A stretch of DNA of 64,000 bases, from the NCBI GenBank assembly GCA_944385095.1, contig CALWVS010000010.1:1-64000 (forward strand), given 5' to 3'. Source of the stretch: an uncultured Oscillospiraceae bacterium (GTDB lineage Bacteria; Bacillota; Clostridia; Oscillospirales; Oscillospiraceae). Each line of letters opens with the position of its first letter. The stretch's first letter is position 1. Under the pieces are notes generated by a model. It was not told the DNA's origin, did no database searches, and saw only the letters and a program-made list of their open reading frames with translations. Both the position numbers and the translations under genes were made by a program. Shown piece after piece: positions 11,786 to 54,619 of the stretch.

Positions 11786-11872
11786 CCTGCTTCCCTCCCC
11801 TCACATCGCCTGATTATATTCCTGTCCTTGTACGAAAGCAGTCATAACAGGCCATCACCCAAAACCATTAAA

Positions 11873-11916
11873 AAAAGATTGTATTTCATGCAAGTCTGCA
11901 TAAAATACAATCTTTT
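11873..11916 (-). terminator. Terminator of the trmB-to-rnmV operon
   Basis: Perfect 14-bp stem (AAAAGATTGTATTT and complement) with an inner ATGCA/TGCAT extension in the loop. It is followed by a T-run on the minus strand and starts 3 bases after the rnmV stop. It closes the long unit that begins at the trmB promoter near 21.98 kb. Confidence 0.9.
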
Positions 11917-11918
11917 CT

Positions 11919-12524
11919 TCAAGTTTTTTCAAGTCCCAACAGTTCTTTTGCCTCTTGTGGTGTGTAGAAGGTGTTGAGCAACTCCAAAAGAGCATTTGCA
12001 CTCATATGTTCTGGCAACTGGAGTGCATGAAGAAACTGTACTCTTTTTTCATGGCTGTTGGCACCACCTACCAGTCCAGCCAGATAGAGGTCTGTTTTAC
12101 TCAGTGCCTGTCCTGCTGAACGTCTCTCCTGCGACTCTCCCAGAATCGTTGCACCTGCCCGTTTCAAAACCTGTTGGAGTATCTCTGGTGGCATTCCTTC
12201 CACCCCGAGTTTTCCTTCTTTACCCGCCTTACGTTTTCTCTTTTCTTTCCCATACTGGTCTGGAATATAGGCGTGTTTTACATATTGTGGTGGAATCTCC
12301 CCCTTAATGCGATTGCGAATGACAAAACCAGCTCCATCTGAATCCGTCAGTACAATGAGACCACGCTTTTGGGCAACCTGCCCCAATAATTTCATTTTGG
12401 GCTGATTCTTAAAAATACCAAATCCATCTGTCTCTAAAATCAGGGTATCTACCACCTGAGACAGGGCATTTTTGTCATACCGTCCTTCCACTACAATGGC
12501 TTCCTGAATTTGAATCTTTACCAT
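11919..12524 (-). CDS. rnmV: Ribonuclease M5 (5S rRNA maturation)
   Basis: RNase M5 cuts the 5S rRNA precursor on both sides of the mature molecule. The 201-residue TOPRIM protein has the acidic motif VVEGRYDKNAL (12-22), LTDSDGAG (about 58-65) and the RNase M5 stretch YIPDQYGKEKRKRKAGKEGKLGVE, split here as IPDQYGKE and GKLGVEGM. The start overlaps the holA stop by 7 bases with SD AAGGGGAACGAG. It is the last gene of the operon. Its TOPRIM domain is the ordinary M5 type, not the JetD nuclease missing from the upstream jet genes. Confidence 0.95.
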   Translation of the reverse strand: MVKIQIQEAIVVEGRYDKNALSQVVDTLILETDGFGIFKNQPKMKLLGQVAQKRGLIVLTDSDGAGFVIRNRIKGEIPPQYVKHAYIPDQYGKEKRKRKAGKEGKLGVEGMPPEILQQVLKRAGATILGESQERRSAGQALSKTDLYLAGLVGGANSHEKRVQFLHALQLPEHMSANALLELLNTFYTPQEAKELLGLEKT

Positions 12525-13576
12525 CTCGTTCCCCTTTTCTGCATTGGGGCTGCCAATTCCAATAACAGTTCTGTTAACAACTCTTGATTTTCACGCCCTG
12601 TTGACTTCATGGCAAAGTCAGTCTGAGCACAGCGCACCACACTACGGCGGCACCACTCCACCCCAAAACGGCGGGCAGAATAAAAAATACGCTCTGCCCG
12701 AAATGATTTTAACTCCCAAAGTTCTGCCACATAGGCTGGATTTTTTCCACGCTCCAACGCCAATGCTGCACAGTAAATTTGCCGTAACTGTTTGCCCAAA
12801 GCAGCCAGTATCTTCATGGGCGGTTCTTGCATCTGATACAGTTCCCCCAGAACAGCCGCTGCATGGTCAAATTTCCCCTCACCAATGGCATTTGTCATTT
12901 GATAAATCACAGCATCCAACTGCACTGTGACCACTGCTTCAATATCTCCTCTGGTAATCCTGGTCTGTTTGGCATAGGCTCCCACTTTCTCAATTTCACC
13001 AATGAGTGTGTGCATCAAATCGCCGCAGAGAAAAATCATCTCTCGAGCCAGTCCCTTGTCAATCTCTCGTCCCAACGCTCGAAACCTACGTTGAATCCAT
13101 GCCACCAGATTTGCCTCATCGCTTCTGGCAAAATCCACCAAAACACCGCTTTTTTTCACTGTGGCTGCCAATTTTGTTCTTGCATCCCACTTAAATGGCA
13201 CTAAATCATAGAAGAAAACCAGACAACAGTAGTCAGGCAACTGACTCAATATGGTGCGGTATTGTTCCCTTTCTGCCTCTCTAGTCTGAAACAAATCAAA
13301 ATCTGTCACCAAAATAAAGGTGCGTTCTGCCATCATAGGCAGACAATCAATTGCTTCTTCCAGTTTTTTAGGTGTGACTTCCTTTTCCTTCAAAACATGA
13401 TAATTAAAGGTCTCCATACCATTGGTGAGAAGGATTGTTTTCAACCGTCCCAGATAATATTCTTTTAAATAGCTCTCCTCACCATAAAAAAAATATAACT
13501 GGCGAATCGTTCCCTCAGATAGTTCCTTCTCCAACTGTCGAAAGTCCATGGCTTCTGTTTTCGCTTTCGCTGCCAA
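12518..13576 (-). CDS. holA: DNA polymerase III delta subunit
   Basis: HolA opens the sliding clamp within the clamp loader. The 352-residue protein follows the delta-family layout: AAA+-like N-terminal domain (LYFFYGEESYLKEYYLGRL near 28-46), lid (WIQRRFRALGREID) and C-terminal collar domain. The start is a TTG placed 8 bases after AGGAGGT, a near-perfect ribosome-binding site. Thus the gene begins inside comEC, overlapping its 3' end by 62 bases. comEC-holA adjacency is common in Firmicutes. Confidence 0.94.
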   Translation of the reverse strand: MAAKAKTEAMDFRQLEKELSEGTIRQLYFFYGEESYLKEYYLGRLKTILLTNGMETFNYHVLKEKEVTPKKLEEAIDCLPMMAERTFILVTDFDLFQTREAEREQYRTILSQLPDYCCLVFFYDLVPFKWDARTKLAATVKKSGVLVDFARSDEANLVAWIQRRFRALGREIDKGLAREMIFLCGDLMHTLIGEIEKVGAYAKQTRITRGDIEAVVTVQLDAVIYQMTNAIGEGKFDHAAAVLGELYQMQEPPMKILAALGKQLRQIYCAALALERGKNPAYVAELWELKSFRAERIFYSARRFGVEWCRRSVVRCAQTDFAMKSTGRENQELLTELLLELAAPMQKRGTRW

Positions 13577-15851
13577 ATGTTTTCACCTCCTGAATTTGTA
13601 TTCGAATGTTGCCTGACTGGTCTGTGCGAAGTACGCCAGCCCCTATTTCCTGAATCCGCTGTAAGGTCTCTGGGGCTGGATGCCCATATCGGTTATTTTC
13701 CCCCACAGAAATCAACACAAGTTCTGGTTTCAACTGAGATAGCAGTTGTTGCGAGGTTGAGGTAGCGGAACCATGATGCCCAGCCATCAACAATTCCACC
13801 TGTGAAACAGATAACTGCTGCAATAGTTCCTGTTCCCCCTCCTCGCTCATATCTCCTGTCAGTAACAAGTCTGTCTCACCCCATGAAACAAGGCAGGATA
13901 AGCCCTGTTCATTCACATCTCCTGATTGAAACATAGGCGGAAACAGGGTAATAGTACCATCCTTCAGTTGAACTTGTGTCTTGGTGTCTATCATACACTG
14001 GTTTACCCCTGTCAATACACACAGTTCCTCTATGTCACTTCTCAAACTGCTGTCTTCTTCCACATCAGCCAATGCAATGTGGTCCACCTGAATTTGTTTG
14101 AGCACCTGTTCAATTCCATTGGCATGGTCATTGTGATAGTGAGTCAGTACCAGCATATCCAACCTGGAAACACCAGCGTTTTTCAAATAGGCTACTGCTT
14201 TTTCACCTGCATCATAATCCCCTCCACAGTCAACCATACACAGAAAATTTCCCATTCGTACCAGAACACACTGTCCCTGCCCCACATCCAGCACTGTAAC
14301 ACTTGCCTCTCCCCACCAAAAACTCCATGCGGTCAGCAAAATGGAGAGAGACAGCATACCAATGATTCCACAAATGGGGGCAATTGCCCTTTTTCTTCCC
14401 GGAATCAGCCATACACCTGCCAGAATCAAATAGCCATACAGAAACCAGATGCAGTAGTATTCCCCATCCAAGCTGAGGGAGGAAAAAGGCAATCCGTCCA
14501 ACCATGTCACTGCCCCTTGGATGTAGTGCGTCAAAAATATGGTGGGAACTGCGATAAGCTGTGCCAATGGAGCCAACACAAGCCCCAATAACCCCAGCAC
14601 TAGCCCAATTTGGAACAGCAAATCCATTGCCCATAGTACAAACAAATTGGAAAGTGGTGCAATCAGAGAGACTGATTGCATGTGAAACGCAATCAGCGGC
14701 AGTGTAAACACAGAAGCTCCCGCTGTCGATGCCAGTGTGGCAATCACCAGCTTTGGTATGAGCTGTTTCCACCACAATATGGACCATCTCTTTGCTTTTT
14801 TCAAATGGAAACAGCCCTGTAACCCGTTGTATACCACATCACTGCACAACAAAATACCTGCCACTGCGGCAAAAGAGAGCTGCAAACCAATATGAAGGAG
14901 TGTATATGGATTCTGGAGCACCTGCAACCCCAGTGCAACTGCCATGGTCGTTAAGGAATCGCTCTCCCGATTGACTAACGGTGCCAATTGGGTCAACAAA
15001 ATCATAATGGTAGCCCTCACAACCGATGGTGTACAACCTGTCATAATTGTAAATATGATACAAATTGGAATCAACAGGATGGCGGTCAGCCTGCGATTAC
15101 CTCCTAAGCAGAGGGATACCATTCCAGCCAAAAAAGCCAGGTGCATCCCTGACACCGCAACAGCATGGCTTAACCCTGTATGCTGCAATGCCAGATTGAG
15201 TTCCTCTGACAACAGGTCTGTATCCCCTGTCACAACTGCCACCGTGATGGGGCTGACAGTCTCAGGAAAAACCTGTACAATGGTATCCTTCAACCTGTCT
15301 ACCCAGATGAGGGGAAACATCCAGAACGGCATGTGTTCTGGAGATTGAACGGTTAAATCTCCATAGAATTTCCCGGTCAGTACAATCCCCTGCGCACGTT
15401 GGTATGTTCCTGCTAGTTGACAGTGGGCAATCCCTGAGATTTCGTCGCCTGGCTGTAGTGTCTCTCCACGCTCATCTATGGTCAACAGCATGGGGAGGCG
15501 TCTACCCTGCTCTGTGATACAAGTAACTGGTAACTGCCACATATCATAACTTGGTTCTGGAATTCCTGTTACCACTGCCTGAAGTTCTATGGTTGTATTG
15601 TTCAGCTCCTGTGCTGGTTGGAATTGCATCTCCTGATGGCACACCATAGAGAAAAATCCAATTGCAAACCCCACAGACACATATCGCAACACACATGACA
15701 TTTTTGCATTGCGTTTTCTTGATAGAACCCCTACCAAACAGAATCCAATGCTAACTCCACACAGTGGAAGCAGCATTGCAGTCAGTGAGCATACCATGGC
15801 TGCCAACACAGCTCCAACTAAGCCCACTGACAAAATCCCCAGCTTTCGCAC
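13515..15851 (-). CDS. comEC: ComEC/Rec2 DNA-uptake channel protein
   Basis: ComEC transports single-stranded DNA across the membrane during transformation. The 778-residue protein has N-terminal helices with a DUF4131-like domain. The competence domain follows (HTGLSHAVAVSGMHLAFLAG near 235). The C-terminal metallo-beta-lactamase domain carries LTHYHNDHANG near 575 and GHHGS near 700. Start is GTG with upstream AAGGGGAG. It lies 48 bases after jetC with no terminator between, so it is probably co-transcribed. Full length and intact motifs suggest a functional protein. Confidence 0.95.
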   Translation of the reverse strand: MRKLGILSVGLVGAVLAAMVCSLTAMLLPLCGVSIGFCLVGVLSRKRNAKMSCVLRYVSVGFAIGFFSMVCHQEMQFQPAQELNNTTIELQAVVTGIPEPSYDMWQLPVTCITEQGRRLPMLLTIDERGETLQPGDEISGIAHCQLAGTYQRAQGIVLTGKFYGDLTVQSPEHMPFWMFPLIWVDRLKDTIVQVFPETVSPITVAVVTGDTDLLSEELNLALQHTGLSHAVAVSGMHLAFLAGMVSLCLGGNRRLTAILLIPICIIFTIMTGCTPSVVRATIMILLTQLAPLVNRESDSLTTMAVALGLQVLQNPYTLLHIGLQLSFAAVAGILLCSDVVYNGLQGCFHLKKAKRWSILWWKQLIPKLVIATLASTAGASVFTLPLIAFHMQSVSLIAPLSNLFVLWAMDLLFQIGLVLGLLGLVLAPLAQLIAVPTIFLTHYIQGAVTWLDGLPFSSLSLDGEYYCIWFLYGYLILAGVWLIPGRKRAIAPICGIIGMLSLSILLTAWSFWWGEASVTVLDVGQGQCVLVRMGNFLCMVDCGGDYDAGEKAVAYLKNAGVSRLDMLVLTHYHNDHANGIEQVLKQIQVDHIALADVEEDSSLRSDIEELCVLTGVNQCMIDTKTQVQLKDGTITLFPPMFQSGDVNEQGLSCLVSWGETDLLLTGDMSEEGEQELLQQLSVSQVELLMAGHHGSATSTSQQLLSQLKPELVLISVGENNRYGHPAPETLQRIQEIGAGVLRTDQSGNIRIQIQEVKTFGSESENRSHGLSTVGEGTI

Positions 15852-15899
15852 TTTGTTTTCTCCCCTTCAAACAAACGGTGCCTTCCCTCTGCTTTTTGT

Positions 15900-18800
15900 C
15901 TACAACTCTATCTTCTCAAATGGTGCCAAAACGGCTCTGGACCCCGCTTTTACAATGGAATAGGTCACATCACAGTAGGGATAAATGGAACTGCATTTTT
16001 CAACGGTGGAAATCAGTACCAACTGTAAGCCCAATTTATGAAACATCTGCATCATGGGTTCAATACGGTCACTAGTCATGTTGTTGAACGCCTCATCCAA
16101 CAATACCAGTCGAATGCTGTTTGGGCTATGGCGATAGATTTGCAGCAGAGAGGCACAAATTGCCACATAGAAGGGAGCCTGATTTTCACCACCGCTACTA
16201 TCTCCACTGACCTGAGAAAGTGGAACTTTCAGACCTGTTACCACATTTTCCACCTGAATGTCATACTCCAAATAGGTACGGTAGTCCACATAACGGGATA
16301 GTTGCTCACTGACTGGCTTTTCTCCTGTGGCTCGTTCCTGTGCTGCCTGATTGATGTCTGCCATAATCCGCTCCATCAGCTCATCTACCTGTGCCTCATA
16401 GGCTGGCTGGCTCATGGCTTCTCTTGTAAAAAAGCTGTCTGATTCGGTAATCTGCACATTGGCTTCATCCAAAATCATATGGTAAAAATTCCTCAGTTGT
16501 GGATCTTGTGGCTCTGACAGGGAAAAGTGGTACCGCTCCTCACCATAGGTCAGTTGGGTCATCACGCGGTCCAGTGCCCGGAACTGCAGCTTTGCATTTT
16601 GAATGTCATCTTTCATGCGGAACAGGATTTCTTTTCGAAAACGCTCCTTACATCTGAGTTTTGCCTCCTGTAAGTTCTCAATAGACCGCTCCAGTTCAAT
16701 ATGTACCAGTTCACTGTACGCTTTGCGGTATTCCTCCAACCCATTCAGCCCCAATGGATAGTCCATCACATAGTTTTGGTTGTACTCCTGTTGTTTGGGT
16801 TGTAATTTCTGATAAAGTGCCTCCTGAAGCAATCCCGCTGTCTCACTGCGCACTCTGCCACAGGTACGCTCACGCTCCTCCGGTTTGCTGTCCTGCTGTA
16901 ATTTCTGATATTGCTGTATCACTGCCTCAATCAGTTCAGGGTGTATCTGTTCAAACCGCTGCTTCTCCCCATAAATCACATCCAACTCCTGTTGATTGCG
17001 TTCTATGTTCTTCTGTGTGTTTTCCATCCCTTTTTCATAGACCCAAATCTGTTTTTTCAATTCATCCAGTGCTGAATCTACTTCTTCACATGCTACCTGA
17101 CAGTTTTTCACCCGGTCAAATAGCCCAGCCAACAGGGGATTTGTCTCATAGTCTCTGATTTTTTCTGCCACCTGAGCAAGTTTTGCCTGTGCCTGTTCTA
17201 ATTGATAAAATACATCCAGATTTTGTTTCAGAGTAAGCAGGTGGCGACCATAGATAAATTGAGAGAGTGTCTGGGCACACACCCCATACTTTGTCCCCTG
17301 TTCCTCCAAAATTTTGAGTTGCTCCATCTGTTCTGCAATCAGTTCCTGTAACTGCTCCTGTCTCTCCCTGCGTGCATCGGAACCAATACATCGGATGGGT
17401 TGTTTCATTCTCTGCAACCGGTAGCCCTGATGGCGCAATAAATCTTGACTGACACTGTTTCTGTACTGCTCAAGCTGTTCTATCTGCTCACAGCAGATAA
17501 TATCATGTAATAAATAGTTGATATATTGCTTTGCGTATCTGTTTTCACTGCCTACCTTGGCTGCCAACATCTCTTTTTGTGGTGGTTCCCACTGTTTACT
17601 GTCCTGCTCTAAGACCACAGTATTGACAAGAGCAATATCTTCCACCTGCTCTCCCAACTGTGCAAATACCTGTTTTGCCATTGGATAGTGTTTGGGGGGT
17701 ACCAGCACATCAAACCGCCTGCGCCCCAAGGCTGCCTCTGCACAATCCTGCCATTCCTCATCTTCCATGTAGAGCAATTCACATAAAATTTTGGCATCCT
17801 GTTCCAGCCCCTGCTTCTCCAGTTCCCCGTTGATTTTCCTACGCAACAGTTCTGCCGGTGGCGGAAATACCATTTTGCCCTTTTTCAGCTCGTTTAGCTC
17901 CTGCACATGGTTTTTTCGTTCCTCTTGCAGTTGTTCCCGTTTGCGGCGAAGCTGGTAACTCTCTTCATCCAGAACTTCCTCCAGCTTATGCAGCTTTTCC
18001 TCCACCTCTACCAGAGCAGATAGTTGCTGTTCTTGGTCCTGTTCCAGCAAGTGTTCCTTTTGTATTGTTGGAGTATCATCCAGTTTCAGTGTGTCCAACT
18101 GTCCCAATAGCTGTTCCAGTTCTGTCATACTCCGATTCCAGTTCTCATACCGCTTTTGCTGTCTGTTCACTTCCTGCTGACATTGTGCCTGCTCCTGTTG
18201 ATAAAACACAGCCGCCTGCACCTGTGGGTCATCATCCCGTTCCCGTTCCGCCTGTCTGAGTGCCTCCTGAGTCTGTTTTTTCCGTTCCTCCAGCCGTTGG
18301 CGTTCTGGTACAAGGTTAGAAAGCTCCTGCTTTGCCTGTATCAACTCCTGCTGACACTGCTTACCTCTGCGCTGTTCCTGCTCCAGTCTCAGACGAATCA
18401 GCAAACCATCATAAATCCAAACCTGATTTTGGAGTTCTTGGGTTCGATTTCCCTGTTCTACCACCTCTCCCAGCAACTTTTCTCTGGTTTTGGCTTCTAA
18501 CAGTGTCTCCTCCAGTCGCTCCAATTCTCTCATATCACTTTGTAAATCTTCTACCTTAATCTCCGGTTCAGGCAGAATATAGGCATAGATAAAACTGCGT
18601 ATATCCTGAATTTCTTTGAGAGAGGTTCCCATATGAAATACTTCATTGAACTTCTTGCCCAGATTGGATTCTGCATCTCCTATCCCCAGAGAACGGCAGA
18701 TATAATTGCGTGCGTCTCTTTGGGTAGCTGGATTTCGGATACCATCGCAGGAATTTTTAAATACCTCTTTTGTAGTTGGACGGCGGTCTGCATCCAGAAA

Positions 18801-19211
18801 CTGTAAATCCTCCAACCGTATCCCGTGTCTGGTTAGAAACCAATCCTGTGCCACCTGTTTCAGCTCCTGGGTTGGGCTGTCTGACTCCACACGCACTACA
18901 ATCACAAAAGGTGCATTTTCTTTATGGTCAAAAAATTCAACCCCAACATAAGCCACCGTCCGCCCGGGTCTTAAATACAGATTTTCCCCTCTCTGCTTTC
19001 CATGTACAGAGCCCTGCAAGGTTCGCTTGCTGCGTTGATTGCCCGCTGTATTAAACTCCTTATTGGTGGTCAAACAGTAGCGGATGGCATCCATAATGGT
19101 GGTCTTACCAACTGCATTGACCCCAATCAGATAGGTTGCATTGCGGAAAGAAATGGTTTCATCCTGAAAATTGTGCCAGTGAATGAGGCGTAATCTGGTC
19201 AACTCAATCAA
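15900..19211 (-). CDS. jetC: MukB/JetC-type SMC ATPase of a Wadjet/MksBEF-like complex
   Basis: Large coiled-coil ATPase expected to extrude DNA loops as the motor of an SMC complex. It has an N-terminal Walker A (GVNAVGKTT, about residue 31), ~700 residues of Q/E/L-rich coiled coil and a hinge-like middle (LVPPKHYPMAKQVF region). The C-terminal head has the signature SGDSSGGENQ and Walker B VLLDEAFNNM. An ATG 33 bases further upstream gives a longer frame, but it lacks an SD. The TTG at 19211 is preceded by GGAGGAGAACC and overlaps jetB by 8 bases, so it is preferred. JetD is absent, so plasmid cleavage is not implied. Confidence 0.9.
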   Translation of the reverse strand: MIELTRLRLIHWHNFQDETISFRNATYLIGVNAVGKTTIMDAIRYCLTTNKEFNTAGNQRSKRTLQGSVHGKQRGENLYLRPGRTVAYVGVEFFDHKENAPFVIVVRVESDSPTQELKQVAQDWFLTRHGIRLEDLQFLDADRRPTTKEVFKNSCDGIRNPATQRDARNYICRSLGIGDAESNLGKKFNEVFHMGTSLKEIQDIRSFIYAYILPEPEIKVEDLQSDMRELERLEETLLEAKTREKLLGEVVEQGNRTQELQNQVWIYDGLLIRLRLEQEQRRGKQCQQELIQAKQELSNLVPERQRLEERKKQTQEALRQAERERDDDPQVQAAVFYQQEQAQCQQEVNRQQKRYENWNRSMTELEQLLGQLDTLKLDDTPTIQKEHLLEQDQEQQLSALVEVEEKLHKLEEVLDEESYQLRRKREQLQEERKNHVQELNELKKGKMVFPPPAELLRRKINGELEKQGLEQDAKILCELLYMEDEEWQDCAEAALGRRRFDVLVPPKHYPMAKQVFAQLGEQVEDIALVNTVVLEQDSKQWEPPQKEMLAAKVGSENRYAKQYINYLLHDIICCEQIEQLEQYRNSVSQDLLRHQGYRLQRMKQPIRCIGSDARRERQEQLQELIAEQMEQLKILEEQGTKYGVCAQTLSQFIYGRHLLTLKQNLDVFYQLEQAQAKLAQVAEKIRDYETNPLLAGLFDRVKNCQVACEEVDSALDELKKQIWVYEKGMENTQKNIERNQQELDVIYGEKQRFEQIHPELIEAVIQQYQKLQQDSKPEERERTCGRVRSETAGLLQEALYQKLQPKQQEYNQNYVMDYPLGLNGLEEYRKAYSELVHIELERSIENLQEAKLRCKERFRKEILFRMKDDIQNAKLQFRALDRVMTQLTYGEERYHFSLSEPQDPQLRNFYHMILDEANVQITESDSFFTREAMSQPAYEAQVDELMERIMADINQAAQERATGEKPVSEQLSRYVDYRTYLEYDIQVENVVTGLKVPLSQVSGDSSGGENQAPFYVAICASLLQIYRHSPNSIRLVLLDEAFNNMTSDRIEPMMQMFHKLGLQLVLISTVEKCSSIYPYCDVTYSIVKAGSRAVLAPFEKIEL

Positions 19212-19788
19212 GGTTCTCCTCCCCCTCCCACTCGGAACGCTCATACTGTGAAAGTCGCTCTCTGGTCTCCTGACAGGCTTTTTCTATCTTTTCCTCTGGC
19301 ATAAGAAGAATAATAGAGGGAAAAATCTGTATTCTCCCTGTAGCACTGTCCAACCGCTCCAGTGCCATTGCCAAATGGTACCGCCTGAACTTTCGCAGAC
19401 TGTCCTCCAGCATCCGTCGGTCTAATTTTCTTGGCAAATTCAGTTTATTGTATTCTGTCTCCAATTCCTCCACTGTGATGGTCACAATTTGTTCCTGAAC
19501 GGACAGCGTTTCCCGTTTTTCCACATAGAGTAAACGGAATAACAACAATAAAATACTTTCATATTTCAGAAATTCCACCCGTCCTGCACCAAACTGGTTC
19601 ACCAACTGCGCCACTCGCAAGGTGCGATTGATTTGAATGGTATAGCCCAGCGGCTCAAATAGCTGCTGCATCTCCTCCAAATTTGCCAGAAGGGAATAGT
19701 ATTTTTCTTTTGTAACATCCAATGTGCCAACTAAAAAACAGTGATTGAGCAGGTAGTTTGCCAGCTCTGTTCGCACCTCACGTTTCAT
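19204..19788 (-). CDS. jetB: JetB/MksE-like (DUF4194) subunit of the SMC complex
   Basis: KITE-type accessory subunit that bridges the kleisin and the SMC head in MukBEF/Mks/Wadjet complexes. The 194-residue protein shows the winged-helix family layout. It has an N-terminal NYLLNHCFLVGTL segment, a central LLLLFRLLYVEKR helix and a C-terminal FRRYHLAMALERLDSATGRIQIFPSI strand region, here quoted in parts (YHLAMALERL, IQIFPSI). SD GAGGAGGCGG precedes the ATG. It overlaps jetA by 11 bases and jetC by 8 bases, indicating fixed stoichiometry. Confidence 0.88.
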   Translation of the reverse strand: MKREVRTELANYLLNHCFLVGTLDVTKEKYYSLLANLEEMQQLFEPLGYTIQINRTLRVAQLVNQFGAGRVEFLKYESILLLLFRLLYVEKRETLSVQEQIVTITVEELETEYNKLNLPRKLDRRMLEDSLRKFRRYHLAMALERLDSATGRIQIFPSIILLMPEEKIEKACQETRERLSQYERSEWEGEENLD

Positions 19789-21202
19789 GTTTCCGCCTCC
19801 TCACTGTGAAATCCTGAAACCGCAACCCACCACAGACAAGAATACGGGGCTGCATTTCAATTTCATACACTCTGTCCGATGATTGGGAGTAGGTATGTAG
19901 TCCAATCATCAATACCAGTTCTTCTGATGTGCCATATTGTTCTGCCAACGCATGGGCACTGGTCTCCTCCTGCTTTTGCAGTACCTTTTGGGCAAAGTGG
20001 TTGACATTTTCCGCAGTAACTGCACTTCGGATATAGTGCATGAGTTGCTCTTGCCCTTGCACAATGACATCTACTGGCAGTTCAGGCAGAGGCTCCATCT
20101 GCTCAATGATACGCCCCTGTTTGGGTTGGACTGGTGCTTTGAGTGACTGCCAATCCACATATCCCTGTTCAAAGCAGCAGATGGTATTTGCCATCCATAA
20201 TTCCACCGGCTCCATCAGTTCATCTGTATCCTGTATTTCCTGAGAAATCACCTGTAACAGTCGATTCACCTTACTTTTTACCGTTGCATCAGACAATAAC
20301 AAAAATTGTGCCCGCTGTACTGCCCTTGTACGGTACAGAATATGCTGTCTGTCAATTTCATTCATCAGGTTTCCAATTTCTTTCAGATTTTCTTCCAGAT
20401 TGGAAATCAGTTGTTCGATGGTCTCTGCCGCCTCCTCCTGAGTGATTCGTTCCACGGTGGAACAGTCTTGGCAAAGCTGCTGAACATATCGACCTCTGCA
20501 CAACTGTAATTGCTCCAATAAATCTGACTTGTAACAAAAGAGATTTTCACTGGTTTTAAATCGGTGATAAGCCCCCTGTACAATCTCCCGTTCATAGGTA
20601 TCAAAGAGCTGCAATACCTCCTGTGGCGTTTTTCCTTTGGTCAGGTCATACATGTACTCCCCAATGGATGCCGCCAATTGTCGCAGTGCTGTATTCAAAT
20701 CCTCCAAATCTCCCACCGCTTCCCGCAGTACTGCCTCATAGGGGTGTTCTGTCTGCTCTATCCCCTGAAGCAATTTGCATACTTTGAACAGCTTGCCCTG
20801 ATAGGCGGTCACATTGGGGGATATGACATCACCAAAGGAGCGGATAATGGGTACAATTTTATGGTGAAAAACGAACTTTGGTTCCTCCTCATAGCTGCCT
20901 GGGCGTTCCTCCAGCCACCCGGTCTGTTTCAGACGGCGCAGGAAGGCGGTTGCCATCGTTCGTGGCGTCTGCCCTCCACCTTCTGAAAACTCCAGTTCTT
21001 CTTCCTCTAATACCACTTCTTTTTGTAACCCCATGAAGTAATCCTCTGCCCAGTCAATCATCATGGTTTTTGAGGCACCGTGGAGAGGGGTACGCCTGCA
21101 ATTTTCCCACAAGCAGAGCAGAATATCCATATATTCCCGTCTATGGTTTCCGGTTAACGGTCTAAAAAAATCCTGTGGAACTAGATCAAAAAGCTGCACC
21201 AA
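19778..21202 (-). CDS. jetA: JetA/MksF-like (DUF5716) kleisin subunit
   Basis: Predicted kleisin that closes the SMC ring. The 474-residue protein begins MVQLFDLVPQDFFRPLTG, the conserved start of the JetA family. A winged-helix region follows (GGGQTPRTMATAFLRRLKQTG), then long helical segments with LEENLKEIGNLMNEIDRQH and a C-terminal winged helix. The start is TTG (next codon GTG) directly after AAGGGGAGGGG. It lies 20 bases after trmB. The tight packing trmB-jetA-jetB-jetC places the complex in a housekeeping transcript. Confidence 0.88.
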   Translation of the reverse strand: MVQLFDLVPQDFFRPLTGNHRREYMDILLCLWENCRRTPLHGASKTMMIDWAEDYFMGLQKEVVLEEEELEFSEGGGQTPRTMATAFLRRLKQTGWLEERPGSYEEEPKFVFHHKIVPIIRSFGDVISPNVTAYQGKLFKVCKLLQGIEQTEHPYEAVLREAVGDLEDLNTALRQLAASIGEYMYDLTKGKTPQEVLQLFDTYEREIVQGAYHRFKTSENLFCYKSDLLEQLQLCRGRYVQQLCQDCSTVERITQEEAAETIEQLISNLEENLKEIGNLMNEIDRQHILYRTRAVQRAQFLLLSDATVKSKVNRLLQVISQEIQDTDELMEPVELWMANTICCFEQGYVDWQSLKAPVQPKQGRIIEQMEPLPELPVDVIVQGQEQLMHYIRSAVTAENVNHFAQKVLQKQEETSAHALAEQYGTSEELVLMIGLHTYSQSSDRVYEIEMQPRILVCGGLRFQDFTVRRRKHET

Positions 21203-21222: not shown

Positions 21223-21924
21223 TTAATCTTCGTTCTGTTGCTGTTGTGTAAGCACACCACTGGGAATATAGACAGGTTCATCATCCAAATGCTGTTTTGT
21301 ACCTACACAGCGGTTGATGGTCATGCCCTGATTGTGAAATTTCTCCTCATAGTCTGTCATCACACCGCAAATTCCCTGTCCATGCAAGTCTCGTGTCACT
21401 TCAGACAGGGTATATCCTGCCTTTGGAAATTGGAACAGGGAATATTCAAATAAATCTCGGTTATCTGTTTTGAAATGAATCTGACCACCCTCACGCAAAA
21501 TACCACGATACAAAATCAAAAACTGTTCGTGGGTCAGCCGACGGCGTGCGTGGCGGTTGGATGGCCACGGATCACAGAAGTTAATAAAAATCCGCTCCAG
21601 CTCATCTGGCTGAAAATAGTCTCTCAGATAGGCAGCATCCCCATCTACAAAAAATACGTTATCCAGTCCCTTTTCTTCACACCGCTCCATTGCCACCACC
21701 ATAGCATCTGCCACACGCTCAATGGCAATATACAGGATCTCTGGGTTCTGTGCCGCTGTCTCTGCTGTAAACCGTCCTTTTCCGCAGCCAATCTCCAGCC
21801 AAATTCCCTTGGCGTCCGGTTTTAACGTATGCCACTTGCCTCGATACTGAGCTGGTTCACGAATCAGCATTCTGGCACAGCGTTCCATTCTGGGAATTAA
21901 ATTGGGTTTTTTTCTCATTCGCAT
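21223..21924 (-). CDS. trmB: tRNA (guanine-46-N7)-methyltransferase
   Basis: TrmB methylates G46 in the variable loop of tRNAs using S-adenosylmethionine. The 233-residue protein shows the SAM motif LEIGCGKGRF (43-52), IAIERV (about 69-74) and the catalytic-site stretch FINFCDPWPSNRHARRRL (112-129), matching the family DPWPK motif with S for K. It is the first gene of the long operon, with SD GAGGTG before the ATG and a promoter just upstream. Confidence 0.96.
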   Translation of the reverse strand: MRMRKKPNLIPRMERCARMLIREPAQYRGKWHTLKPDAKGIWLEIGCGKGRFTAETAAQNPEILYIAIERVADAMVVAMERCEEKGLDNVFFVDGDAAYLRDYFQPDELERIFINFCDPWPSNRHARRRLTHEQFLILYRGILREGGQIHFKTDNRDLFEYSLFQFPKAGYTLSEVTRDLHGQGICGVMTDYEEKFHNQGMTINRCVGTKQHLDDEPVYIPSGVLTQQQQNED

Positions 21925-21960: not shown

Positions 21961-21989
21961 ATCTTAGCATAGGAACTGACCCCTTGCAA
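21961..21989 (-). promoter_or_regulatory. Promoter of the trmB-jetABC-comEC-holA-rnmV unit
   Basis: Minus-strand TTGCAA and TAAGAT with a 17-base spacer, ~37 bases before the trmB ATG. It is back to back with the tRNA-Pro promoter 30 bases away. Confidence 0.65.
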
Positions 21990-25049: not shown

Positions 25050-26052
25050 TTATTTATGACTTGTTTCTTCTGTATTTCTTACGATTTTCTGACAATCCAT
25101 TGGCAGTTGCATCACAAACTCTATGGTTCCTTCGCTGCTGTGGGCTGTTATGGTTCCTCCATGCAGGGTTACAATCTCTCTGGCAATGGCAAGCCCCAAC
25201 CCGGCACCACCTGTACGGGTGGAACGGGCATAGTCCAAACGATAAAACTGCTCAAAAATCCGCTCCAGCTTCTCTTGTGGTATGGTCTGCCCTCGGTTCC
25301 GAATACAAATTCGCACAACATCTTCCATCTGTATCAACGATAAAAACAGTTCTGTATTGGCATCACTGTAATAGATGGCATTCTGAATGAGATTGTCAAT
25401 GACTCGCTCTAATTTATCAGTATCACAGACCACTTCCACCTGCTCTGGAATTTCTAACTTCCATTGCAAGCCCTTCTCTGCAAGAATGGGATGGAATTCA
25501 TAGGTCATCTGCATCAACATACGGCTAAGGTTCGTTTTGACTGGCTCCAAGGAAAATTCATGGATACGATACCGTGTCATTTCAAAAAACTCATTGATGA
25601 GCAATTCTAATCGCTCTGCCTTCCCCCTTGCAATTCCACTATATTTTTGAATTAACTCTGGTGTAATTTCTGGTTCATCTTCAATCAGTTTTAAATAGCC
25701 TATCACACTGGTCAATGGTGTTTTCAGGTCATGTGCCAAATACACCAGTAAATCTTCTTTTTGCTGTTCTGCCTTCTGGGCTGTTCTGATTCTATCCAGT
25801 GCCTGTGTCCGAACAAGGTTTAAATCCTGCTCGATGCTGTTTAGATTGTCAGGAAGCATGATAGGAACCTCTGTGGGGTGGGCAAGCTGTTTTGCCGCCT
25901 CTGCCACATCCTCCAGATATTCCAATGGTCGCAACAGAAATTGGAATAAAAAATGGCTTAAATCCTTGAAACCATGCTGTTCTGTCCAGGTTGGTGGTTC
26001 CCATGATAATGAGAAACAATAGCCCCAATAAAACCACTGTTATCACAAACAC
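25050..26052 (-). pseudogene. VanS-like sensor histidine kinase, 5' truncated and frameshifted
   Basis: The intact 3' frame (25050-25934) encodes a HAMP-proximal linker, the H-box YLAHDLKTPLTSVIGYL, N-box NLIQNAIYYS and G-boxes TGGAGLGLAIAREI, as in VanS-type kinases. The frame continues upstream as SHFLFQFLLRPLEYLE without a start. The transmembrane helix (VITVVLLGLLFLIIMG, 26000-26050) lies in another frame, so a one-base shift is present around 25945-25990. Before that helix the sequence jumps directly into the response-regulator gene. The sensory N-terminus is therefore lost. A TTG could still start a soluble 294-residue kinase core, but signal input is missing. Confidence 0.8.
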
Positions 26053-26267
26053 AATAGCCTAAATCCATCCAGTTCTGGCATCATTACATCTAAAATAGCA
26101 AGACTCACTGGCTCCTGTTCCAGATATGGAATGACCTCTTTGGGATGGTAGCATGTTTTCACCTGAAACTGTTCATTTTTCAGGTAGACTTCCAATAAAT
26201 CAGCAATTTCCTTTTCATCATCCACAATTAAGATTGTCTCCCTGCTTTGATCCACTGATATCACCAC
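26043..26267 (-). pseudogene. VanR-like response regulator, truncated to its receiver N-terminus
   Basis: Only 74 residues remain: ILIVDDEKEIADLLEVYL with the acidic pair, then the phospho-acceptor motif AILDVMMPELDGF. Directly after DGFRLL the sequence enters the kinase transmembrane region and stops. The rest of the receiver and the whole winged-helix DNA-binding domain (~150 residues) are absent. It overlaps the kinase remnant by 10 bases. The product cannot bind DNA. Confidence 0.82.
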
Positions 26268-49277: not shown

Positions 49278-52200
49278 TTATGATTTTAAGATAATCTCAG
49301 GCATACTGTCATAACGAGGTACGCTGATGAACAGGGTGTCACTGGTCATACGGGGATTACTTCCTTCGCTATCCACAGCACGCCACATTTGAGCCTGCAA
49401 GGCAATCATGACCAGATTTCCAGCAGCATGATTTTCTCCATGGTCCTCATTCACCTGTTTGAAGCTCTCCTGATTCTCTGGGATAAACACAAAGAAACCG
49501 TCACTAATGGTACTGACTGCACCGTCTTTTGGAATCTCTGCAAAGAGCAATGTCTCACCAGACAGGGTCTGCTCTGTTACCACTGGTGCCTCACTGGAAC
49601 CTGGCTTCATGGACTGCATCTTTGCTTTCACACGAATGCTGTTGTAAATTGGATCTCCTCGATAGCTGCCAGTGATGATGATGGTTCCAGCAGAAATTGT
49701 TTCTGTTGTTGTTTTACCTTCTTCATCCATAACAGTATAACTGTAATCCGCTCCCAGTATGCCAATCGATGCACCCTCTGTAAATGCAATGTTGTCACCT
49801 GGATAGCTTAGCAACTGAATATTGGATGTAGACACATCAGCAGGCATGCCAGAAATCACAATACTGACAGCATCATAAATCCAGATACGGGTATCTGTGG
49901 CATCTGTACCCGGCTTATTCCAATAAGTCAGGAAGGAAGCTTCACTTTGACTGTTAGAGAAACGATCACTTTTTGCAACCACACTTCGTCCATCTGCTGT
50001 GGTAATGGTAACGGTATAATCGCCACTGGTAGGAATGGAATCTCCAACGATTTTCAATCCACTGGTGGTCAATACTCCACCATCCTTAGCTGTAATCTGG
50101 ATATTTTTTGTATTTGTATCCTGATTTAGCCCATATTCACTGATATCATACAGAGTTGCATCGAGGGTTACATCATAGGAAATTCGTACCTGCTCAGCCT
50201 GTGCTGTGGCAACCTCATAACCCAGCTTGTCAATGACACGAACAGAATAGGTAAATGACATATGGTTGGCTGCACCCACTGTATCCACATAGGTCTGAGT
50301 GTTTTCCCCATTGCCCATCAAAAATCCTACTGGTGTACCATTGCGCAAAATCTCATAACCCTGAACTCGGCTGGCATCACCAGACACTGTGACGGTCAAT
50401 TTTACCTGTTTCTCGTTCTCCACCACAGCAGTGAGATTGGCAGTCAATTCTGCTTTATTCTCACCATTGAGACGGTCACGGCGGGACTGGTCGTTAAGAT
50501 ACCAAATATTGCGGGGTTCATTCTCATATTCAGCTAGAGTCTCTTTTGTTTTAACACTCAACTCCATGCCCCAACGAGTGAAGAATTCAGTCAGATTCTT
50601 GCCGGTCACTTCGGCAGCAATCAAGGCAATCTGATCATCTTTACTGGGTGCATCACTGTGCACTCCAGCCTTCCACTTGCTAAAGAAAGCATTGTAGAAG
50701 TCCAATGCACCACTACCATCAAATGGACTGCCTGCCTCATCATAGGTCAGATGCAACTGCCAATACATTCCCAACTGGGTAAATACATCGCCAGCCTGAC
50801 CGGGCTTTCTTAGGGCAACCTTATCAAAGATAGTCTGATACATACCCTCTAAACGGGATTGACCAACCATGTCACCTGTATCTGCTGTCTGGGCTACCAG
50901 AGAATAGATATTGTTGGTGATTTCTGCATAGCCAATCTTGTCCATGTTATGGCCAATCTCATGTGCAATACCCCAGCCATAGAGACCATTGAGATCGTCT
51001 CCATCAATTCCACTACCGCTGCCTGTCATTTCTACTGGATAGCCTGTGACCATAGCACGGGTTTCATTGTAGTCAATCCCTATATAGCTTCCAGCTGCAA
51101 ACATAAATGCACCAGAGAACATGCGAGAGAATCGGATATTTTGTCTGGTTTGCATGGGGTACTGGTAGGAAGCAAAGTCCGCATCTGCCTGAATAATACC
51201 CTGTGTTTTATTAACTAGGAACAACAGCTGCTCCCATGCACAAATGGCATTATAAAGTTTGGATGTGGCATCCTCCACTGATACTGTAGTACCACCTAAA
51301 CCGGACAGTACCTGATCAGCTGGTAAGGACAACAATACACTGGGAGTTGCAATCTCGGTCACATTGCGGATATTTGTTTTGCGACTGCTGTCATTGGGGA
51401 AAGACAGCCCTGCCACATAGGTCTGCAACTCTTGTACATAATCACGAATCAGGGTTTTACGTTCGTCCTCACTTTTACCATACCACTGGGTTGGGTCAAT
51501 GTTTAACATTGGGATTTCCGTTACTACAGTTTTCTGTTCAGATGTATCACGGATTTGTAGTTTCAGCGCATTTGCATTGCTGCCACTGTACTCAATGTAG
51601 AGGGAACCACCACGTTCACCACTGCCGGAATTTCCAATTTCGGTGAGGTAAATACGGTTGCGTCCATTGTGGAGTGTGTAACTCTGTCTTGTATTTCCAG
51701 TCTCAGAATACTGCTGCCACTGTACTAATGTAGCTGTTTCCCCATCGCCCAGACCTTCAACATAAATGGAAATTGCCTGGTTGGACAGGGCAGAAATACC
51801 CAAAGGTTGCAATGCAGAAGCAGTTTGCCCATACTTCTGGTCTGCCGCTCCACTGCGGGATGCAAAACCAGCCCGGACCATCAGTTCCTCCCCATTGAGC
51901 AGTTGCTGTGCATTGTCCAGCTCATCCAACAGAACCGCCCGATCCACATAGTAGGCATCTACATCACTGGCTTTCTCATACAGTGCATCAATGGTAGCCT
52001 GATCCACACCGGCTGCCAACGCTGTGTGGCTGTCATTTGCAAACATTGCCTCAATAGAATCAGCCAACCCATCATACTCATAGAATGCCACTTCTGTCAA
52101 ATTCATATTGCCTGCACCATCCCACTGACTGGGCTCCACTGTTAAAGAAGTGACCGTTGAACGAGGGAATTTAACAATAAAGTAAGAGTTGTCATCTACC

Positions 52201-54254
52201 TTTTCAAAAGATACTTGCCCTTCTGGTATTGCTACACCATTGATAGAGATGTTGAATTTTTTAAAATAGTCACGATATCTATTTCCACTGTTATTTTGAG
52301 TATCCAGCCCTAAATTTGGCACATAAATAAAATAGTCCATCTCATAGGCTTTATCAAAATGAAATGTAAACTGTTTAGGATCCCACCATCTGGAAGCAAC
52401 CCATCCAGTGTGGTAATCTCCATCATAGACTGCACTGGGCAACTGACCTACACTCACCTTTGTATCTGTGTTGTTTGTGGGATAAGTTGCAGATACAATA
52501 ACGCTGTTATCCAATCGGTTCACTGTGGGCAGGTCTGGAGCTTCTATATCCTCCCGTTCTGGTGTTCCTTCTGCTGTGAGAGAAACAGGTCCATTTCCTC
52601 TGATGTTGACACCAAATACCTGTACTTCATAGGTAACGCCATTCTCCAAACCAGAAATGTAGGTTGAATTTTGGAACTCCCCATCCAACACCACAAATTC
52701 ACTCTGTCCCTTGACCCGGTACTGAACTTTGCTGTATTGGGTATCTTTTCCGGGCTTCCATGTCACCTGTAACATGGTATCTTTGGGTGTAACTGTTACA
52801 TTATCCGGTTTATCTGGTACACTTGCAGGCTGTGGTGTGGCACTGACAACATCAGACTTTCCACCTTCCCACTTTTGGTCGCTGGCAGTAGAAATAGGGG
52901 CTACAGCAAAATAATAAGTTGTGAGATTTTTTAGATTTTTGATTGTGCAGGAAGTGCGGTCTGTCTCCACAGTGCTGGTCATTTGATTCTGGCTTGTACC
53001 ATAGTAGACCTTATATCCAGTGATATTGGGGAACACATCCCAAGACAATGTGACCTCTTCCGCTCCAGCCTGTGCTTTTACATTTTGTACCTTTGTGTTC
53101 TCCTGTACTGGATTCTCAGGTAAAATATCTTTCAGGAACTTAATCTGTTCCACCACAATTTCCTGATTGTCCACTACTTCCACTCGAATGGTAATCTTCT
53201 TTACTGGAACCCGTGCACCCAGAGAAATGGTCACAACTTTGCGTCCATCATCTCTGGTCTGTATGGCATACACACCATCTGGTGTGCTTTCATCAAACAG
53301 TACCTCAAATGTATTTCCATCTACGGTAGTTACTTCCACAACACCTTTTTCCAATGGGGCTGCTGTGGAACTGACAATCTCTACCTGTTCCAGCTCCACA
53401 CCCTCATTGGCAGTCAAAGGAATGGGCAGTGCAATCTGGCTCTCATTCTCCTTGGCAGCCAGTCGCACTGTTTCGCTATTGTCTGTAAACAGGGATGCAA
53501 TATTACCACTTTTAATGGTTCCCTCCAGCTCCTGTTCTGCACTGGCAATATCCACTACTTTAGACAAAATGGCTGAGGTCTGATAGACCTGTGCCTCCCC
53601 TGTGGCACCGGATGCCATAGTGATCATTGCCAAATCAGTGATATCTACCGCTCCATCTCCATTAAGGTCAGCTAAGCTATTCTCCGTATCCAGATACTGT
53701 TTCAATACCTCAATGTCAGCCTCATTCACTCTGTCATCGCCGTTCAAGTCACCTTGTGTAAAGGTGCCGTCACCAGTACCCAGAATCATCCCCTGAGAAT
53801 AGTTTGACAAGGTCAATACTTCACTGCGATAGGATTGAAACCCAGTACCTGTCAATTCAAGGTAGTATTGGTTTTCGTTGGCTTCCGCAGACAGTCCAGT
53901 AAATTGGACATCTACTGAAGTAACCATAGTTTCATTGGTTTTCCATGTAACAGTTCCAGTGGCTGCGCTGCCATCTGTAAATGTCAAGGTTCCCTCTTGC
54001 AAAGAACCAGAAGCAATCTTCTGATTGCCGCGGTACAGATCGACAGCAATGTCACTGTCTTTCAGTTTATCTATGGAGATGGGATAATCCATTCGGATCA
54101 TCGCCTGAATATCTCCCGTTGCTTTGGTTGTCCTGGTAGAAACCAGTTCCACACTGGTGTAATCGGTTGCCACTGCCTGGGGGATACCACCCAACAGACC
54201 CATGCCTATTGCAGCTGCAAGAACACCAGACAGGGCTCTTTGATGCCATCTCAT
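49278..54254 (-). CDS. Large secreted M60-like (enhancin) metallopeptidase with dockerin, FN3 and CBM32-like domains
   Basis: The ~1658-residue protein has a signal peptide (RALSGVLAAAIGMGLLGG) and a beta-rich domain. A type I dockerin lies near 165-215 (GDLNGDDRVNEADIEVLKQY and ADLNGDGAVDITDLAMIT). Two FN3 domains follow (~390-570), then an F5/8-type sugar-binding region (~580-740). The catalytic motif AHEIGHNMDKIGYAEI lies near 1097 and fits HExxH-x8-E of the M60 family, whose gut members cut mucin-type glycoproteins. A TTG gives 9 more residues, but the ATG at 54254 follows AAAGGAAATAAG. Putatively tethered through a cohesin partner. Confidence 0.9.
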   Translation of the reverse strand: MRWHQRALSGVLAAAIGMGLLGGIPQAVATDYTSVELVSTRTTKATGDIQAMIRMDYPISIDKLKDSDIAVDLYRGNQKIASGSLQEGTLTFTDGSAATGTVTWKTNETMVTSVDVQFTGLSAEANENQYYLELTGTGFQSYRSEVLTLSNYSQGMILGTGDGTFTQGDLNGDDRVNEADIEVLKQYLDTENSLADLNGDGAVDITDLAMITMASGATGEAQVYQTSAILSKVVDIASAEQELEGTIKSGNIASLFTDNSETVRLAAKENESQIALPIPLTANEGVELEQVEIVSSTAAPLEKGVVEVTTVDGNTFEVLFDESTPDGVYAIQTRDDGRKVVTISLGARVPVKKITIRVEVVDNQEIVVEQIKFLKDILPENPVQENTKVQNVKAQAGAEEVTLSWDVFPNITGYKVYYGTSQNQMTSTVETDRTSCTIKNLKNLTTYYFAVAPISTASDQKWEGGKSDVVSATPQPASVPDKPDNVTVTPKDTMLQVTWKPGKDTQYSKVQYRVKGQSEFVVLDGEFQNSTYISGLENGVTYEVQVFGVNIRGNGPVSLTAEGTPEREDIEAPDLPTVNRLDNSVIVSATYPTNNTDTKVSVGQLPSAVYDGDYHTGWVASRWWDPKQFTFHFDKAYEMDYFIYVPNLGLDTQNNSGNRYRDYFKKFNISINGVAIPEGQVSFEKVDDNSYFIVKFPRSTVTSLTVEPSQWDGAGNMNLTEVAFYEYDGLADSIEAMFANDSHTALAAGVDQATIDALYEKASDVDAYYVDRAVLLDELDNAQQLLNGEELMVRAGFASRSGAADQKYGQTASALQPLGISALSNQAISIYVEGLGDGETATLVQWQQYSETGNTRQSYTLHNGRNRIYLTEIGNSGSGERGGSLYIEYSGSNANALKLQIRDTSEQKTVVTEIPMLNIDPTQWYGKSEDERKTLIRDYVQELQTYVAGLSFPNDSSRKTNIRNVTEIATPSVLLSLPADQVLSGLGGTTVSVEDATSKLYNAICAWEQLLFLVNKTQGIIQADADFASYQYPMQTRQNIRFSRMFSGAFMFAAGSYIGIDYNETRAMVTGYPVEMTGSGSGIDGDDLNGLYGWGIAHEIGHNMDKIGYAEITNNIYSLVAQTADTGDMVGQSRLEGMYQTIFDKVALRKPGQAGDVFTQLGMYWQLHLTYDEAGSPFDGSGALDFYNAFFSKWKAGVHSDAPSKDDQIALIAAEVTGKNLTEFFTRWGMELSVKTKETLAEYENEPRNIWYLNDQSRRDRLNGENKAELTANLTAVVENEKQVKLTVTVSGDASRVQGYEILRNGTPVGFLMGNGENTQTYVDTVGAANHMSFTYSVRVIDKLGYEVATAQAEQVRISYDVTLDATLYDISEYGLNQDTNTKNIQITAKDGGVLTTSGLKIVGDSIPTSGDYTVTITTADGRSVVAKSDRFSNSQSEASFLTYWNKPGTDATDTRIWIYDAVSIVISGMPADVSTSNIQLLSYPGDNIAFTEGASIGILGADYSYTVMDEEGKTTTETISAGTIIITGSYRGDPIYNSIRVKAKMQSMKPGSSEAPVVTEQTLSGETLLFAEIPKDGAVSTISDGFFVFIPENQESFKQVNEDHGENHAAGNLVMIALQAQMWRAVDSEGSNPRMTSDTLFISVPRYDSMPEIILKS

Positions 54255-54619
54255 TTTCTTATTTCCTTTCTTTTGATTCAATCACTGTATTTCTTTGACA
54301 GCCCTACAGTATCTCTTATATTGTATCACAAGTGATCCCATTTTGTATCCCATAAACTGAAAATTTAGGGAAATTTGTGTATAAGTTAAAAAAGAAAAAT
54401 AATAACCATTTAAATTAAGCAGAACACACAAATATTTTACTACTAATTTGGTATGATTTTAAAATAAAAGGGATAAATTGTATTTTATATATTTTTTATC
54501 CATCTGTTTTTTCCATTTGGAAAGCTTCTCAACCATACATGGATTGTCAGCTTATAGCATAGCAAGGTATTCCATACTGTGGTAAAATGGGAATCAAGTT
54601 TTGTGGGAGGTACAAGAAA
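54255..54619. other. AT-rich divergent intergenic region with a 12-bp palindrome
   Basis: This 365-base gap separates the M60 gene and the LytTR regulator. ATCACAAGTGAT (54325-54336) is a perfect palindrome. It lies next to TACAAT/TATAAG-like -10 candidates for the M60 gene, and TTGTATC recurs 22 bases apart around it. A weak TTGTCA-18-TATTCC (54544-54573) may serve the regulator. No gene is seen. Confidence 0.45.

Follow-up and report, generated by a model that had tools for sequence, protein, structure and literature searches.

A type I Wadjet motor without a detectable JetD nuclease, set among housekeeping genes of an uncultured Oscillospiraceae bacterium

The window analysed here comprises 64,000 nucleotides from an uncultured Oscillospiraceae bacterium (contig CALWVS010000010.1, positions 1-64,000; its genome is referred to below as G000) and carries on its minus strand three adjacent genes, jetA, jetB and jetC (15900..21202), for the kleisin, KITE and SMC ATPase subunits of a Wadjet-type complex. 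Judged by sequence, the locus is derived from type I Wadjet, JetD-less and MksBEF-like in its composition. We do not file it as a Wadjet system, because a defining subunit, the nuclease JetD, was searched for and not found. The explanation we favour, with about even confidence, is that a Wadjet motor deprived of its nuclease has been kept as an auxiliary condensin, like MksBEF of Pseudomonas aeruginosa.

JetA (19778..21202, minus strand; start TTG at 21202 or GTG at 21199) is an MksF-like kleisin of 474 amino acids, matching PF18982 with 270.5 bits and the PADLOC profile JetA1 with 572 bits. JetB (19204..19788, minus strand) is an MksE-like KITE protein of 194 amino acids which matches PF13835 (DUF4194) and JetB1 (199 bits), and the MksB-like JetC (15900..19211, minus strand) has SbcC/SMC ATPase domains and matches JetC1 with 1305 bits. 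The matches to the PADLOC type I profiles span nearly the full length of the proteins, and by this measure jetABC are full-length type I Wadjet motor genes, with all three subunits JetA, JetB and JetC represented. All three ATPase motifs are present in JetC, namely Walker A (GVNAVGKT), the signature (SSGGE) and Walker B (LVLLDE). Among solved structures, a JetC profile matched E. coli JetC (8as8, E-value = 6.1e-42); a single-sequence phmmer search gave no match there, whereas the profile search did. The JetB profile likewise matched solved E. coli JetB, and the AlphaFold model of JetB (predicted local distance difference test score 85.7) matched first JetB of E. coli and of P. aeruginosa PA14, and then MukE. 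The JetA profile gave only one weak match (E-value = 0.0096), to a chain resembling a designed coiled coil, and the identity of JetA therefore rests on Pfam and PADLOC. There is an 11-base overlap between jetA and jetB. The longest jetC open reading frame (ORF; 15900-19244) would overlap jetB by 41 bases; we prefer a TTG start at position 19211 that agrees with the homologues (M-I-E-L-T-R), has AGGAG upstream and leaves an overlap of 8 bases.

No jetD gene follows jetC. Instead, comEC begins after 48 bases (15852..15899, minus strand), and this gap, which is the site of jetD in JetD-bearing relatives, yielded no JetD remnant. PF09983, the C-terminal domain of JetD, has no match in G000 (98.89% complete, 59 contigs) or in the sister species G189, the N-terminal family PF11795 lying outside this genome-wide search. 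Of the 22 genomes submitted to the same search, 13 yielded jetD (5 of 12 and 8 of 10), and a profile from our own script also places jetD directly after jetC in each of these 13 relatives from the order; since both approaches recover the same genes, the PF09983 search is sensitive enough for this branch. In seven jetD-less loci compared, including the degraded locus of G003 described below, tblastn hits to jetD were at chance level (best E-value = 0.10) and revealed no remnants. A JetD profile built from the JetD-bearing relatives matched none of the solved structures at E-value 0.01. An earlier reading of this DNA, made from its letters alone (hereafter the sequence-only reading), had reported gene overlaps of 8-11 bases and no jetD after jetC, both of which hold, and had proposed searching the genome for JetD and for SMC/ScpAB. 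The first of these searches yielded no PF09983 match; the second covered Smc and ScpA and found both (Smc with 1069.7 bits, C24; ScpA, C8).

Thus characterized, the genome has SMC, kleisin and KITE genes side by side with complete ATPase motifs, no MksG/JetD match, and a coexisting Smc and ScpA, which is the constitution of an MksBEF-type complex. P. aeruginosa MksBEF is likewise an SMC-kleisin-KITE complex, reported without JetD and beside Smc-ScpAB (PMC10586767, PMC7485682). However, it belongs to another operon and organism, the likeness is one of composition, and its chromosome role was measured, whereas that of JetABC is deduced. With type I Wadjet (JetABCD/MksBEFG) the window shares the JetA, JetB and JetC families, the A-B-C order, the overlapping genes and the ATPase motifs, and it differs in having no jetD downstream, no PF09983 match elsewhere and housekeeping neighbours on both sides. 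MukBEF is also a KITE-type SMC complex, to which the window is linked by the MukE match of the JetB model and a MukB match of the JetC profile (E-value = 1.6e-10). Yet solved JetC is by far the better match for JetC, which reaches PF04310 only at E-value = 0.28, and MukBEF replaces Smc-ScpAB in enterobacteria according to a review (PMC10586767), whereas the window's genome has Smc and ScpA. Smc-ScpAB itself is of the same loop-extruding condensin class but is encoded by separate genes in this genome.

PF18982 detected JetA in 10 of 200 genomes of a family sample, in 12 of 394 of an order sample, in 5 of the 64 genomes of the genus (5 of the 31 that are at least 90% complete) and, above the cut-off, in 55 of the 398 genomes of a phylum sample with a completeness floor of 95% (seven weaker matches were dropped). 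Together, the family, order and genus searches gave 20 distinct genomes with JetA, and 19 of them have full-length jetA, jetB and jetC, split over two contigs in G026. Thirteen of the 19 full-length loci carry jetD and six do not (G000, G189, G053, G198, G500 and G473). Two genomes counted as full length and JetD-bearing, G449 (L086) and G458 (L085), encode a full-length JetC in which the Walker A and Walker B motifs are present and an SGG-type signature is not. G003 retains only fused jetA/jetC pieces (L043:4123-5630), the jetA piece being about 54% identical to that of the window. In the JetC tree, the JetD-less sequences need four changes, and the well-supported branches force all four; G003 is excluded from that tree, while the JetA tree labelled its remnant JetD-bearing despite the lack of a JetD match, and both trees carry warnings of long branches and uneven composition. 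Because homologous jetD always occupies the same place, we infer that the four changes were losses rather than gains, so that JetD has apparently been lost repeatedly in this order, in four separate lineages. The sister group of G000 and G189 is formed by two JetD-bearing members of their genus, G207 and G208 (support 99/97). These nearest relatives have jetD directly after jetC, and their JetC is 54.6-56.0% identical to that of G000 and G189.

Absence of JetD seems rarer outside the order. The phylum sample added 53 new loci. In 46 of them jetD adjoins the complex (in G854 it is truncated by the contig end), two lack it (G891 and G963, from one family), two are cut by a contig end before the jetD site (G829, G952) and three are degraded (G665, G792, G994). 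JetD is absent from 6 of 19 loci in the order versus 2 of 48 in the rest of the phylum sample (Fisher p = 0.005), or from 4 of 17 versus 1 of 47 after collapsing to lineages (p = 0.015). The comparison is rough, with only the JetD-less side collapsed and phylum loci judged by neighbourhood rather than whole genome. The IFDR motif at the N-terminus of JetB, which contacts JetD (PMC10586767), was considered as a marker of JetD coupling and discarded: it is absent from all 19 JetB proteins of the order and all 49 of the phylum sample, most of them from JetD-bearing loci. In two otherwise complete JetABCD loci, L149 (G713) and L150 (G683), jetB and jetC are separated by about 2 kb and 0.6 kb, respectively, suggesting inserts. 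In the JetD-less G963, a gene for a Uma2-family putative restriction endonuclease (L162:4362-5021) directly follows jetC; none was seen after jetC in its relative G891.

The sequence-only reading took the complex for a vertically inherited condensin and named as a finding that would contradict this a jetABC that is patchy among relatives and flanked by mobile genes. The patchiness half of this is what the above counts for genus, family and order reveal, and the nearest relatives are JetD-bearing, which leaves vertical inheritance unsupported. A core condensin would be found throughout the lineage at a conserved locus, whereas here JetA is confined to a small minority of the genus and the locus to two species.

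Despite this distribution, the motor genes are under strong constraint. Between G000 and G189 the ratio of nonsynonymous to synonymous substitution rates (dN/dS) is 0.035 for jetA, 0.027 for jetB and 0.039 for jetC at dS of 0.18-0.31, which falls within the housekeeping range of the window (holA 0.050, rnmV 0.033, sigE 0.019, comEC 0.173, trmB 0.013; median 0.061 over 37 ORFs, a few of them probably spurious). All three ORFs are full length in both genomes and, since neither genome has a JetD match, parsimony places this constraint after the loss of jetD. A second JetD-less pair, G053/G198, gives 0.041-0.083 for jetABC against medians of 0.035 in the comEC region (9 ORFs) and 0.060 in the jet region including jetA and jetC (12 ORFs). 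On these ratios, jetABC probably does something useful without JetD. The patchy distribution of JetA and the decayed pieces in G003 could also be accommodated by a passing remnant, in which jetD was lost only recently and decay of jetABC is still to come, but intact genes evolving at such low ratios over this divergence in two species, both without a JetD match, and again in G053/G198, make this quite unlikely.

Lower dN/dS in JetD-less pairs was also examined as proof of domestication and rejected as such. For JetC, these two pairs have 0.039 and 0.041, and the pairs scored JetD-bearing with defined dS range from 0.068 to 0.278 (G829/G991 among them, although G829 is cut before jetD). However, the third JetD-less pair, G891/G963, has 0.098, and baselines differ by lineage, trmB having 0.122 in G207/G208 versus 0.013 in G000/G189. 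For the latter reason we draw no conclusion from the higher ratios of JetD-bearing pairs.

JetABC has been described as a motor with a dimer-of-dimers architecture that is modelled to extrude loops, JetD being the nuclease (PMC10586767, PMC10512200). If the motor serves as an auxiliary condensin, jetD would have been lost before G000 and G189 split, and the kleisin-KITE-SMC complex would still load on DNA and extrude loops with ATP. Having no nuclease to fire, JetABC would not cut, and a cell with its own Smc and ScpA could use it as an additional condensin, with the position between trmB and comEC-holA-rnmV providing steady housekeeping expression. The precedent is P. aeruginosa MksBEF, which organises the chromosome beside SMC (PMC7485682) and which, according to a review, likely arose by loss of JetD (PMC10586767); in Corynebacterium glutamicum, MksBEFG includes the nuclease and acts on plasmids while leaving chromosome folding unaffected (PMC7083940). 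The sequence-only reading had likewise favoured a condensin over a defence system, and apart from vertical inheritance and a ComEC link its view agrees with the lack of a JetD match, the presence of Smc and ScpA, purifying selection like that on the neighbours and the co-directional packing of the genes. Several points weigh against the condensin explanation. Purifying selection indicates function, not which function. The complex is dispensable, as JetA went unmatched in 59 of the genus's 64 genomes (of the 64, only 31 are at least 90% complete), and G003 documents decay of a related jetA/jetC pair. Nor is the Pseudomonas precedent clean, because a four-gene operon including mksG is reported as conserved in the Pseudomonas species having it (PMC10123090), so that a nuclease-free MksBEF rests on what the review states for P. 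aeruginosa.

The main rival to an auxiliary condensin, although we consider it unlikely, is plasmid control without a nuclease, whereby JetABC would recognise small circles by extruding them totally and would then hold, compact or silence them. In its favour, the motor is full length and conserved. Yet suppression of plasmid transformation in Bacillus subtilis needed all four subunits (PMC10586767), and in C. glutamicum plasmid yield rose on deletion of any one of mksB, mksF and mksG (PMC10123090).

A broader proposition, which we put forward tentatively and hold to be somewhat less likely than the condensin role itself, is that Wadjet systems of this order have repeatedly given up plasmid defence and become, through deletion of the nuclease gene, resident motors that organise DNA. 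The window would then represent an advanced case, with the motor built into the trmB-comEC-holA-rnmV unit and kept as strictly as housekeeping genes. That condensins such as MukBEF and MksBEF originated from Wadjet has been proposed and is still open (PMC10586767, section 7). Repeated apparent nuclease losses with JetD-bearing relatives make it testable through sister complexes, and if the losses are real, the four JetD-less lineages would be natural experiments on how condensins of the MukBEF or MksBEF type originate from defence systems. The apparent repeated dropping of the nuclease in the order is the more interesting result; it raises the question of what a plasmid-measuring motor does once it is unable to cut, and it warns that a defence annotation based on jetABC alone can mislead. 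Among open-licence papers, phrases on the absence of JetD in the Wadjet/JetABC literature turned up only in PMC10586767 ('loss of JetD'), none was found linking Wadjet with comEC, and, judged by listing, none dealt with Wadjet in Oscillospir-named taxa.

The jet genes lie within a run of seven minus-strand genes of one direction, trmB, jetA, jetB, jetC, comEC, holA and rnmV. The presumed operon starts with trmB (21223..21924; NF001080, 192.6 bits, cut-off 132), 20 bases from jetA, and continues after jetC with the DNA uptake channel gene comEC (13515..15851; TIGR00361, 197.8 bits, cut-off 190.05), holA for the DNA polymerase III delta subunit (12518..13576; TIGR01128, 238.9 bits) and an rnmV-like gene with TOPRIM and DUF4093 domains (11919..12524; PF13331, 70 bits, above its cut-off; TIGR00334, 75.2 bits, below its cut-off of 110.65). 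These family matches support the placement of jetABC between trmB and comEC-holA-rnmV given by the sequence-only reading. Its terminator at 11873-11916 coincides with a terminator-like hairpin 3' of rnmV (11871..11918, minus strand; 20 pairs, 3 of them G-C), the longest stem in our scan, which lists no terminator in the gaps between the genes of the unit and neither promoter nor terminator in the jetC-comEC gap. The promoter it placed at 21961-21989 (minus strand; TTGCAA-17-TAAGAT) is a less certain match: counted by hand, it has an extended -10 and agrees with the consensus at 8 of 12 bases, short of the scanner threshold of 9 and hence missing from the scan list, although G189 has an identical sequence over the surrounding 105 bases.

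The TOPRIM domain of the rnmV product, encoded in the same unit as jetABC, raises the idea that it, or else an unlinked enzyme, substitutes for JetD. We regard this as very improbable. The gene is the sole DUF4093 match of the genome and adjoins holA without adjoining jetABC in G128, G132 and G026 (L036, L047, L048), so RnmV looks ordinary and was rejected as a stand-in nuclease; moreover, the genes after jetC in G053, G500 and G473 are unrelated (VWA_CoxE/AAA, asparaginase and MatE, respectively).

The sequence-only reading had further suggested that JetABC handles DNA entering through ComEC and that the trmB-jetABC-comEC order should be compared across relatives. The two genes are indeed co-directional and 48 bases apart with no listed signal between them, but the comparison found this order in G000 and G189 only. 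None of the jet loci fetched from the other 18 JetA genomes contains comEC, nor do any of the 53 phylum loci at E-value 1e-10, nor do the 12 trmB neighbourhoods retrieved for the genus, of which five are shorter than 10 kb. In two members of the genus without a JetA match the genes lie apart: in G128 comEC lies about 390 kb from trmB and is preceded by an ECF-type transporter gene, and in G039 the two are on different contigs, with a gene for a RarA/MgsA-type ATPase before comEC. The setting thus looks lineage-specific rather than ancestral. DNA coming in through ComEC is single-stranded and would be an unlikely substrate for an extruder of double-stranded loops. A ComEC tie, resting on the gene order of one lineage, is accordingly left with very little likelihood, and an auxiliary condensin would not need it.

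Among JetD-bearing systems of the order, that of G207 adjoins a ResIII helicase gene, beyond which lie genes encoding an FRG protein and the specificity subunit of a type I restriction system, and that of G066 adjoins a DUF3427/ResIII helicase gene. Flank families were searched in three of the 13 JetD-bearing loci (G207, G066 and G132), and a defence neighbourhood is therefore not a general result. On plasmids, JetA had two distant matches (23.3% and 21.7% identity). A 'Bacteriophage sp.' record with JetABC, MT835591.1 (L117, unverified), was dismissed as evidence for JetABC on phage, as it has the look of a bacterial contig. The JetABC proteins of this record share 98.7-99.4% identity with those of the JetD-less G473. 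Downstream of its jetC lie a 410-aa ORF that matches no Pfam family and a gene for a C-5 cytosine methylase; the corresponding place in G473 is taken by a MatE transporter gene. The remnant in G003 lies near a gene with HTH_21 and rve integrase-type domains. Elsewhere in the window, a 74-aa ORF (26043-26267) that looks by eye like the start of a response regulator, seemingly cut short in the assembly, has as neighbours ABC transporter genes and the gene for a histidine kinase (25050-25934), and positions 49278-54281 encode a protein of 1667 amino acids with peptidase M60, fibronectin III and dockerin domains.

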